A stretch of DNA of 64,000 bases from Prevotella sp. GTDB taxonomy: Bacteria; Bacteroidota; Bacteroidia; Bacteroidales; Bacteroidaceae. Positions 4,596 to 9,184 of this stretch are shown here, piece by piece. The DNA lies in NCBI GenBank assembly GCA_016281055.1, contig JAEEHW010000082.1, forward strand, positions 62,001 through 126,000, in the 5' to 3' direction. Position 1 is the first letter of the stretch, and every line of letters starts with the position of its first letter. The position numbers and the translations under genes are program-made. Below the pieces are notes generated by a model that worked only from the letters and a program-made list of their open reading frames with translations, was not told the DNA's origin and ran no database searches.

Positions 4596-5618
4596 ATGGC
4601 AAAAGTAGTTACATTAGGCGAGATTATGCTTCGTCTTTCCCCGAATGGTCAGGATCGTTTTGTTCAGACCGATGTGTTTCGTATTATCCCTGGTGGCGGT
4701 GAAGCCAATGTGGCAGTGAGCTGCGCAAACTATGGACATGATGCATATCTTGTAACCAAACTTCCTGCTCATGAGATTGGACAGATTGCAGTAAATTCTC
4801 TTCGTCGTTATGGCGTTAACACAAAGTATATTGCTCGTGGTGGTGACCGTGTTGGCTTGTACTATTGTGAGACAGGTGCTTCTATGCGTCCTTCCAAGGT
4901 GATTTATGACCGCGCTCATTCTGCTATTGCAGAGGCTGATCCATCAGATTTTGATTTCGATGCAATAATGGAAGGTGCTGACTGGTTCCACTGGTCTGGT
5001 ATTACACCTGCTATTTCAGACAAGGCTGCAGAACTTACAAAATTGGCTTGCCAGGCTGCAAAGCGTCATGGTGTGACAGTTTCTGTTGACCTCAACTTCC
5101 GTAAGAAGCTGTGGACATCAGAGAAGGCTATATCTATTATGCGCCCACTTATGGAATATGTAGATGTATGTATCGGTAATGAGGAAGATGCAGAACTCTG
5201 CTTAGGTTTCAAGCCAGAGGCTGACGTAGAGGGCGGAGAAACAAACGCTGCTGGTTACGAGGGTATCTTCAAGCAGATGAAGGAGAAGTTTGGATTCAAG
5301 TATGTTGTTTCAACATTGCGTGAGTCTTTCTCTGCTACATTCAACGGCTGGAAGGCTCTCATATATGATGGTAAGGAATTCTATCAGTCAAAGCGTTATG
5401 AAATCAATCCTATCATCGATCGTGTAGGTGGTGGTGACTCTTTCTCTGGTGGACTTATCCATGGCCTGTTGACAAAGGCTACACAGGGTGAGGCTCTGGA
5501 GTTTGCTGTAGCAGCATCAGCGCTGAAGCACACTATCAACGGTGACTATAATCTTGTAGGCGTTTCTGAGGTAGAGTCATTGGCTGGTGGTAACGCTAAT
5601 GGTCGTGTACAGAGATAA
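4596..5618 (+). CDS. kdgK: 2-keto-3-deoxygluconate kinase (PfkB family)
   Basis: PfkB motifs GGGEANVAVSCANYG and DRVGGGDSFSGGLIHGLL; adjacent to eda. Confidence 0.9.
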   Translation: MAKVVTLGEIMLRLSPNGQDRFVQTDVFRIIPGGGEANVAVSCANYGHDAYLVTKLPAHEIGQIAVNSLRRYGVNTKYIARGGDRVGLYYCETGASMRPSKVIYDRAHSAIAEADPSDFDFDAIMEGADWFHWSGITPAISDKAAELTKLACQAAKRHGVTVSVDLNFRKKLWTSEKAISIMRPLMEYVDVCIGNEEDAELCLGFKPEADVEGGETNAAGYEGIFKQMKEKFGFKYVVSTLRESFSATFNGWKALIYDGKEFYQSKRYEINPIIDRVGGGDSFSGGLIHGLLTKATQGEALEFAVAASALKHTINGDYNLVGVSEVESLAGGNANGRVQR

Positions 5619-5640
5619 TATTTCAATCATATAAAAGAAA

Positions 5641-6309
5641 ATGGCAAAGTTTGATAAGTTTCAGGTGATGGCAAAGATTGCCGATGCACCTATGGTTCCT
5701 GTATTCTATAACAAGGACGTTGATGTTTGTAAGAACGTTATCAAGGCTTGTTATGAGGGTGGAGTTCGTGCTTTTGAGTTTACCAATCGAGGTGATTTCG
5801 CTCATGAGGTGTTCGGTGAACTTTCAAAGTGGGCTGTGAAGGAGTGTCCGGAACTTGCTCTTGGTATTGGTTCTGTCGTTGATGCGCCTACAGCATCTCT
5901 GTACATTCAGCTTGGAGCAAACTTCGTGGTAGGTCCGTTGTTTAACCCTGACATCGCAGTTGTATGTAACCGTCGTTGTGTTACATATTGTCCTGGCTGC
6001 CTTACACCATCAGAGATAGGTAAAGCACAGGAAGTCGGCTGTGATTTCACTAAGGTCTTCCCTGGTGACGTTGTAGGTCCAAATCTCATTAAGGGTCTTA
6101 TGGCACCAATGCCATGGTCAAAGATTATGGTTACCGGTGGCGTTGCTCCTGAGGAAGAAAACTTGAAGGGTTGGTTCAAGGCAGGTGTGTTCTGCGTTGG
6201 AATGGGCTCAAAGTTGTTCCCGAAAGACAAAGTGGCTGCAGGTGATTGGCAGTACATAACAGATAAATGTAAAGAAGCACTTGGCTATTGTGCAGCTGCT
6301 AAGGCTTAA
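5641..6309 (+). CDS. eda: KDPG/KHG aldolase
   Basis: [64 protein letters not shown]. Confidence 0.92.
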
Positions 6310-6325
6310 TAATAATAGTTTTAAA

Positions 6326-6367
6326 GGCTCCACAAAGTACATGTTGGCTTTGTGGAGTCTTTTTTTT
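6326..6367 (+). terminator. Intrinsic terminator after eda that contains the likely ATG of the next gene in its loop
   Basis: ggctccacaaag (6326-6337) pairs with ctttgtggagtc (6348-6359), one G-U, then 8 T; loop tacATGttgg. Confidence 0.85.
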
Positions 6368-9184
6368 CTGGCTTTCCTGGTATCTAGTTGTAATAAAAAT
6401 GGAAAGTCGGAAGGTGAAAGCTTGTTTTTGTATGAGGTTGAGCAGATGCATCAATGTCAGCAAAAGGCAGACAACATAGGTTTTTATATTCATAAATACA
6501 GGGCAGAGAATATAGAGGATGAGCCTTCGTTAAGGTATTATCTTGTTCTTGCAGATTATTTGATGCAGGTAGGCAATCGTGCAGAGGCACGTAGGATAAT
6601 GGATAGTCTTGCAGTCGTACCCGTGACGATTACAAACAAGGATACATCTTTATGGCTTGACTATCTGTGTCATCAGGGAGAGGTAAATTACAGACGTTAT
6701 AATATTAAAGAAAATCGTGGTAAAATCCTAAACGGTTTTGATTACTTGATTCAATGCTATATACTGTCATCAAGAAAGGGGTATGACAAATACAAGGCTA
6801 TTTCTATGAAGTTGCTTAGCCAGTATCTGTTGAATGATAGTATATATACAATTATAAAACATGGAGACCCTGCAGGAATAAGATACATAAATGAGGAAAC
6901 AGTGGATGAATCATTGCTTGCAGGAAATCTTGCTGAGCGTGCATTGTGTGAATTTCTGGAAGAAAACGACAGTTATCAAACAGCGGATGCATGGCGTGTG
7001 CTTGCGGTATGCTTCTTCAGTATTGGTAATGCAGAGCGTTCTGTTGAATGTTTGCATAATGCGTTGTCAAATCCTGCTGTTGACTCATTGCCGGCGTTGA
7101 AGGCAAACATTAATCAACTTATGTCAATGTCGTACTCTGCTCTTGATGACAAGAATGCGAGTGACATGTATAGAAATGCCTATCTTGACATACAAGACAG
7201 TATAAGGCAGGATAGGAAATTAGAGGTTCGTGCCATGGAATTGAGTGATTCCATACATGATATTTGGTACAGTGTCTTGGTTGCGATGTGTATGTTTGTT
7301 GCATTGTGCCTGCTTACTGTTTTCTTGAATCACTTGCGTAAAAAGAGAGAGAAAAAGAGCCGTGCATATAATGAGGAAATAGAAAATCTTGAAGAACAGT
7401 TTGGTATTATAAAATACAAATATTCAGAAGCCCTCCGTGCTGCCATAGAACAGAGTGCCCGTATATCATTTGTCAGCAGTATGTTGCCTCTCATTGAACG
7501 TGCAAGAATTGCTGCAGAGAAAGGACAATTTGAATATGTAGGAGAGACTGCGGAATGTATTTCAAAACAGAATGAAATGCTTACCACCTGGATAAAGTTG
7601 CGTCAAGGTAGTGTGCTGCCACAAATAGAAAAGTTCTCGATACAGGATTTATTCTCAATAGTTAGGCAGAATACAGCTAATTTGGCGAATCAGGGTGTGG
7701 AGTTCGAAATAACAGAAGCGGATGCTAATGTGAAAGCAGACCGTGTACTTACCTTGTTTATCTTGAATACTGTTATTGATAATGCAAGAAAATCTCAATC
7801 AAAGCGTATTGTGGTAAACATGATCACAAATACAGACAAACAATATGCAGAGATAACAGTGACCGATGATGGCAAGGGTATGTCACCAGAAGTGGTGGAA
7901 CATCTTTTTGACAAGAAACCTATTTGTGACGGAGATGTCAATGATTACAACAAGTCTCATGGCTTTGGCCTCCAGAATTGTCGTGGTATAATTGATCGTT
8001 ACAAGAAGGTGTCGTCAGTATTCTCGGTATGTGCCATTTGGGCAAAGTCTGTATTAGGTAAGGGAACGACGATAGGTTTCAGATTACCTTTGTCGATGCT
8101 TCTTACTTTATTATTTATGGTAGGTACTTTGCCGGATGCAAGGGCAGATGTGAAAAGATATGCGGACAGTCTGTACTATTTCAATGTAGAGCGTCAGCAT
8201 GTTGAGGCGATGCAATATGCTGATTCGTGTATTGCAGCATTGAATAAAGGAGAAAAGACAGATAGTGCAACATTGTTGTCGATATATAATGAGACTGCGG
8301 TTGCAGCGTTGGCTTTGCATGATTGGAGTAAGTATTCGTTGTATAACTTTCGGTACATGTCCTTGTATCAAGATTGCACGATAGACAGAAGCCTTCCATA
8401 TTACTGCAAGCGATTGGAATCATATAAACTGATTGCAGACATCGCAATGATAATAAGTGTTGTTCTGTTGTTTGCGTTGATACCAATCTTCTGGTTTGTA
8501 TATCTGCGTCATGTTTACAGTGAAAGGAAAGACTTGTTATTACGCAGAAGTCAGACGAAGGACCAGATATCAATTTTTAGAAACAAATATTCTGCGATTC
8601 ATGTCTATAATAACATAACGGATAATCATTTGTCGAGTTTGAAACATGAAACGATGTACTATCCGTCTCGTATCCGACAGATGGTCAAGGATAATGAAAA
8701 TTTGGAGGTTCAGGAATTGACGTCAGTTGTTGGATATTATAGAGAGTTGTATTCATTACTCTTGAAACAGATGACAGGAGATGCAAAGGAAAAACTGTTG
8801 TTTCCTGTTAGAAATAAAAGTCTGTCAGAATGGTTCCATTCAGCAGAAGGTGACGTTGTGGTGAACGAAGAACTGTTGACATACCTTCTTGTGTTGCTTA
8901 AACGTCATAACAGTAACAAGAATCCGATATACTGTGTATCCAGGTATAATGAGAAATATTACAAGATAGAGGCGTCCATGACATCTTTCGATAAGTCAAT
9001 GGACGATTTGGGTGACTTGTTCTCGGTATATACATGTGATACGGATTTCCTGGTTATGCGTCAAATACTGCGTGTTACGGGAAGCGTGAGTGGTTGTTAT
9101 GGATGTGGTATAGGTGTAGAGCCTGGTATTGAGCCTCCCACGCTGTCATTTACTCTGCCATGTGCACATAAAAAAACGCTTTGA
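6341..9184 (+). CDS. DUF5112/DUF5113-like lipoprotein/TPR sensor histidine kinase-like protein with HATPase in the middle
   Basis: Lipobox SLFFLAFLVSSC; HATPase motifs LFILNTVIDNARKS, VTDDGKGM, SHGFGLQNC, GKGTTIGFRLPL; second TM/TPR half with KHETMYYP. In-frame TTG at 6281 is an alternative start. Confidence 0.8.
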   Translation: MLALWSLFFLAFLVSSCNKNGKSEGESLFLYEVEQMHQCQQKADNIGFYIHKYRAENIEDEPSLRYYLVLADYLMQVGNRAEARRIMDSLAVVPVTITNKDTSLWLDYLCHQGEVNYRRYNIKENRGKILNGFDYLIQCYILSSRKGYDKYKAISMKLLSQYLLNDSIYTIIKHGDPAGIRYINEETVDESLLAGNLAERALCEFLEENDSYQTADAWRVLAVCFFSIGNAERSVECLHNALSNPAVDSLPALKANINQLMSMSYSALDDKNASDMYRNAYLDIQDSIRQDRKLEVRAMELSDSIHDIWYSVLVAMCMFVALCLLTVFLNHLRKKREKKSRAYNEEIENLEEQFGIIKYKYSEALRAAIEQSARISFVSSMLPLIERARIAAEKGQFEYVGETAECISKQNEMLTTWIKLRQGSVLPQIEKFSIQDLFSIVRQNTANLANQGVEFEITEADANVKADRVLTLFILNTVIDNARKSQSKRIVVNMITNTDKQYAEITVTDDGKGMSPEVVEHLFDKKPICDGDVNDYNKSHGFGLQNCRGIIDRYKKVSSVFSVCAIWAKSVLGKGTTIGFRLPLSMLLTLLFMVGTLPDARADVKRYADSLYYFNVERQHVEAMQYADSCIAALNKGEKTDSATLLSIYNETAVAALALHDWSKYSLYNFRYMSLYQDCTIDRSLPYYCKRLESYKLIADIAMIISVVLLFALIPIFWFVYLRHVYSERKDLLLRRSQTKDQISIFRNKYSAIHVYNNITDNHLSSLKHETMYYPSRIRQMVKDNENLEVQELTSVVGYYRELYSLLLKQMTGDAKEKLLFPVRNKSLSEWFHSAEGDVVVNEELLTYLLVLLKRHNSNKNPIYCVSRYNEKYYKIEASMTSFDKSMDDLGDLFSVYTCDTDFLVMRQILRVTGSVSGCYGCGIGVEPGIEPPTLSFTLPCAHKKTL

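Follow-up and report, generated by a model that had tools for sequence, protein, structure and literature searches.

The gene considered here occupies positions 6341-9184 of the window (i.e., the whole 64,000-nucleotide stretch of Prevotella sp. DNA analysed), translation of which yields an uninterrupted open reading frame of 947 amino acids. It is preceded at 4596-6309 by genes for a kdgK-like sugar kinase and a KDPG aldolase-like protein (names given by sequence reading only), which likewise lie 5' of the kinase in most Prevotella-group loci (L086-L165); these neighbours may point to a connection with sugar-acid metabolism. A terminator-like hairpin with a T-run after the aldolase gene (6323-6370) overlaps the kinase start: the ATG at 6341 is situated inside the hairpin loop, and the T-run encodes the WSLFF part of the signal sequence. 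The kinase start of L088 shows a similar hairpin and T-run, and that of L087 a shorter inverted repeat followed by T-rich codons. The features assigned to the gene are as follows.

6341-9184, plus strand: predicted split-in-one-chain sensor histidine kinase, 947 aa, stop codon within the coordinates
6341-6391, plus strand: lipoprotein-type signal sequence, lipobox VSSC with Cys17 (translation)
6428-6955, plus strand: periplasmic DUF5112 domain of TPR-like helices (Pfam; all-helical in the model)
7262-7336, plus strand: TM1, running on into a long signalling helix, residues 293-379 (hydrophobic stretch; model helices)
7373-7615, plus strand: DHp1, helical hairpin without a phospho-accepting His, with V378 at the H-box position and P383 and R387 conserved (alignment, model)
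7622-8095, plus strand: CA1, intact ATP-binding domain with N481, D509, G511, G513, G541 and G543 (Pfam, alignment)
8096-8146, plus strand: TM2, signal-like hydrophobic segment taking the chain back to the periplasm (translation; topology inferred)
8147-8440, plus strand: DUF5113 lobe, the second on the periplasmic side; homologous to the first half's TPR-TM region (Pfam, profile comparison)
8441-8506, plus strand: TM3 (hydrophobic stretch; model helix 684-771)
8543-8776, plus strand: DHp2, with invariant K-H-E and P775 (KHETMYYP) and the putative phospho-acceptor His769, codon 8645-8647 (alignment, model)
8777-9163, plus strand: CA2, HATPase-like fold without the G1 (DxGxG) and G2 (GxGL) boxes (alignment, profiles, model)

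The motifs named in the original prediction were all recovered on the translation, including the N box (7754-7795), G1 (7859-7882), G2 (7958-7981) and G3 (8057-8092), the His-free helix claimed for the first half (ARISFVSSMLPLIERA at 7457-7504) and KHETMYYP, whose His codon lies where it had been placed. The suspected resemblance to DUF5112/DUF5113 proteins is likewise borne out, both Pfam profiles scoring above their curated cut-offs: DUF5112 (PF17139) over residues 30-205 with 69.6 bits against 29.4, and DUF5113 (PF17140) best over residues 638-723 with 89.4 bits against 27.1. DUF5113 matches outside the window's family were set aside, those inspected being TPR or unrelated proteins. Pfam HATPase_c is matched in the first half only (residues 474-585, E 1.9e-13), the second half having no such match of its own, and HisKA found no Pfam match anywhere in the 947-aa kinase. 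The kinase is present in the window's genome as a single copy; a second, weak match elsewhere covers just part of the catalytic domain.

Of the 251 genomes sampled from the window's family, 193 contain homologs, in 25 of 30 genera; the open frames measure ~950 to 1500 aa. Forty homologs from this sample were aligned jointly with 80 more, mostly from Prevotella and Prevotellaceae (e.g., Hoylesella oralis, Prevotella denticola, Xylanibacter ruminicola), giving an alignment with n = 121. Lys768, His769, Glu770 and Pro775 are invariant in all 121 aligned homologs, as are Asn481, Asp509, Gly511, Gly513, Gly541 and Gly543 of CA1. Columns 377, 378 and 380 of the first half, i.e., the possible H-box registers, hold His in none of the 121 homologs, and the neighbouring column 379 holds it in two rows. 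Thus, the pattern that the original prediction had left to be checked in homologs, no His in the first H-box and a conserved one in the second, is found in 121/121. The longer homologs, e.g., L080, carry an insert between TM3 and DHp2 which is absent from the window protein and in which Pfam names no domain.

It is barely conceivable that the first half uses another acceptor, e.g., a His seven residues after P383: this residue is encountered in 65 of the 121 homologs, with Glu in the next column in 103, but in the window protein the position is occupied by Ile, and many other homologs have Asn or Tyr there. This His is not conserved, and as the acceptor of the first half it is excluded by sequence for the window protein.

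In the C-terminal domain of the second half, the CA shape is retained but G1 and G2 are gone; in L085, for instance, GTEYLVCKQIIRDHDEFAGRRGCRINAE is read at the site of the kinase GFGL motif. Most of the GxGI matches in CA2 fall on the GCGI of the strand that follows the helix rather than on the G2 lid, and in two rows DxGxG is matched close to G3; both kinds of match were discounted. The usual H-box of histidine kinases has its His at P-5 and Thr or Asn at H+4. In KHETMYYP, His769 is at P-6 and the H+4 residue is Tyr.

Profile-profile comparison relates the two halves with E 1e-28 over their whole lengths, 7e-11 for the periplasmic/TM part and 2e-15 for CA1 versus CA2; DHp1 and DHp2 alone gave no detectable signal in the profile alignment. 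On this evidence, the halves of the kinase are homologous. Across the order, the half-2 profile also picks up the catalytic cores of ordinary kinases (E down to 1e-17), and among the best matches those extending end to end belong to the window's family only. In the full-length single-chain model (mean pLDDT 84, pTM 0.52, at which the domain packing remains unresolved), both halves contain a long helix leading from the TM up to a helix break close to the conserved proline, then a second helix, then a CA fold. In this model, His769 is situated two residues before the end of helix 684-771, in the place that residue 377 takes in helix 293-379; the best PDB matches are HK853, WalK and ZraS. Modelled alone, the second half (pLDDT 87) yielded 48 PDB matches at E <= 0.001 (Foldseek), nearly all of them histidine-kinase cores or proteins built on such cores, with WalK, CpxA, HK853 and further kinase cores matched over its length. 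Since an HMM search of the second half against PDB sequences found no kinase match, the evidence for its fold consists of the predicted model and the order-wide profile matches.

Overall, the second half is DHp+CA-like, with CA2 related to HATPase_c by profile and by structure and devoid of the catalytic boxes. A DHp-like nature of the C-terminal half, on which the original prediction depended, is supported by the matches of its profile and of its stand-alone model to kinase cores. The segment after the His had been described as having no DxGxG or GxGL; the boxes are indeed absent, but a degenerate catalytic domain homologous to CA1 is present there.

Directly downstream of the kinase, most relatives carry a gene for a receiver-DUF5932 response regulator, which was found in 111 of 120 stretches around kinase homologs. 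In 64 of 80 loci, the second gene downstream, after the regulator, codes for a small membrane protein matched by Pfam ABG_transport (AbgT), e.g., L117:11556-12164. In the window, recF directly follows the kinase in place of both genes. The earlier statement that recF follows at once and no regulator is nearby therefore holds within the window, but the genome does possess the regulator: a single, unlinked copy on another contig (G000:C25:41913-42632), 69% identical to the query, in which the phosphorylation residues E10, D11, D57, T87 and K110 are kept, as judged by inspection of the sequence. The regulator is displaced in the window's closest relatives as well, with none within 8 kb downstream in L088 and L091 and a match ~7.4 kb further on in L089. 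Across the same 251 genomes, the kinase occurs in 193 and DUF5932 in 192; by comparison of the lists by eye, the sole difference appears to be G244, in which the kinase sits on a 3.1 kb contig. From this adjacency and co-occurrence, the receiver-DUF5932 protein is inferred to be the cognate partner of the kinase.

An inactive pseudokinase, merely scaffolding or dephosphorylating this regulator, would be in keeping with the lack of a His in DHp1, and pseudo-histidine kinases such as DivL are known (PMC4211667). This option is unlikely in view of the phosphorylation residues retained in the regulator and of the invariance of His769 and the CA1 ATP-site residues in 121 homologs. Still less support can be given to the suggestion that His769 is charged by a different kinase, the second half acting as a phosphotransfer domain and the first as a separate ATP-dependent switch. 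Phosphotransfer (HPt) relay proteins exist and CA2 is degenerate, but one chain holds both halves in 121/121 homologs and the kinase is single-copy in the window's genome.

The best explanation is a membrane sensor histidine kinase composed of two homologous halves with complementary losses in one polypeptide. The definition of an ordinary HisKA kinase is not met: the first half has a CA without the His, the second a His without G1 and G2, and no HisKA is recognized. The definition of a split histidine kinase, in which the ATP site and the acceptor are separated so that both parts are needed, is met, albeit by sequence only. The separation of the ATPase and the phospho-acceptor into opposite halves of one polypeptide, inferred in the original prediction, is supported by alignment, profiles and model. 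Since the first half has no acceptor His and the second no ATP site, the halves probably work only together.

Under this explanation, the first half, with its lipoprotein anchor, periplasmic DUF5112, TM1, His-less DHp1 and intact CA1, would be the ATP-using one, and the second, with TM2, the periplasmic DUF5113 lobe, TM3, DHp2 with His769 and degenerate CA2, the phospho-accepting one. CA1 would phosphorylate His769 of DHp2, most likely inside a DHp1/DHp2 pseudo-dimer (an inferred geometry), and the phosphate would presumably pass from His769 to Asp57 of the dedicated receiver-DUF5932 regulator. CA2 may serve as a regulatory domain without ATP binding. The route from CA1 via His769 to the regulator, in whichever geometry, is assigned a probability of roughly 0.8; phosphotransfer is inferred here, with no biochemistry behind it. 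The unresolved domain packing in the model, the absence of an alignment signal between DHp1 and DHp2, the P-6 His, the Tyr at H+4 and the regulator being unlinked in this genome count against it.

The same chemistry could also operate across two chains, i.e., in a homodimer with DHp1-DHp1 and DHp2-DHp2 bundles, where CA1 would reach a His769 elsewhere in the dimer. This is a variant of the best explanation and does not exclude its chemistry. Ordinary histidine kinases act as homodimers, and the model gives either half a TM and a long helix of its own; there is no decisive counter-evidence, the prediction having covered a single chain only. The arrangement is possible but less likely than not.

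Outside the window's family, DUF5932 was detected only in G350 and G533 among 295 genomes of the order. In G350, the regulator adjoins an undivided 717-aa lipoprotein TPR sensor kinase in which the His of RHDMSP and an intact CA occur together; both split halves align to it, the second His on His. This undivided kinase (L195, family f101 of the same order) has in common with the split one a lipoprotein-type signal, a TPR-like region, a TM, a related catalytic core and a neighbouring DUF5932 regulator, and differs in its 717-aa length, its one DHp with His and its one intact CA. In CA trees, CA1, CA2 and the undivided kinase group against 11 other kinases (93/90, not starred), and CA1 and CA2 as sisters are not rejected (p-AU 0.66). 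The undivided kinase suits duplication followed by complementary loss; because of long branches, the trees do not settle between this and a fusion of two related kinases.

The fullest form of the preferred explanation, an obligate one-chain pseudo-heterodimeric kinase which arose by internal duplication and complementary loss, is relied on family-wide, performs one directed transfer per molecule owing to its single ATP site and single acceptor, and acts as an AND gate in which two different periplasmic sensor lobes control one half each, can be advanced only as a conjecture, somewhat doubtful as a whole. A one-chain split kinase would bring together in a single polypeptide what is known from pairs of separate proteins, and would be part of the standard signalling equipment of a major group of gut bacteria. 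As either half comes with a periplasmic lobe of its own, one output may require two inputs; with the regulator now named, the pathway is directly testable. DUF5112, DUF5113 and DUF5932 are named in no paper of the searched literature, and the titles and abstracts retrieved on split, tandem or pseudo-histidine kinases contain no description of a one-chain split kinase.

Among comparable systems, the kinases of HK1-HK2-TcrA of Mycobacterium tuberculosis are incomplete, and DivL, unlike the window kinase, is not known to have a complementary acceptor half in its chain. Split kinases made of separate proteins are established (PMC3591291, PMC7656254). In Rhodobacter sphaeroides, the P1 acceptor domain is missing from CheA4, and CheA3 is without the domains for dimerisation and catalysis (PMC3591291); as proposed for the window kinase, ATP binding and phospho-acceptance reside in different partners, neither of which works alone, but CheA3 and CheA4 are two separate proteins, whereas the window kinase unites two homologous DHp+CA units in one membrane polypeptide. 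Hik36-Hik43/Rre6 is a split kinase of Synechocystis (PMC7656254), and HK1-HK2-TcrA is listed in PMC8965865. Both combine two incomplete kinases with one regulator; they are encoded by separate genes, unlike the single chain of two homologous halves seen here. DivL, a pseudo-histidine kinase (PMC4211667), resembles the first half in joining a DHp without a phospho-accepting His to a CA domain. As a design, though with unrelated fold and chemistry, the arrangement is analogous to C1/C2 of mammalian membrane adenylyl cyclases, where duplicated membrane and catalytic units with complementary degenerate sites are united in one chain.
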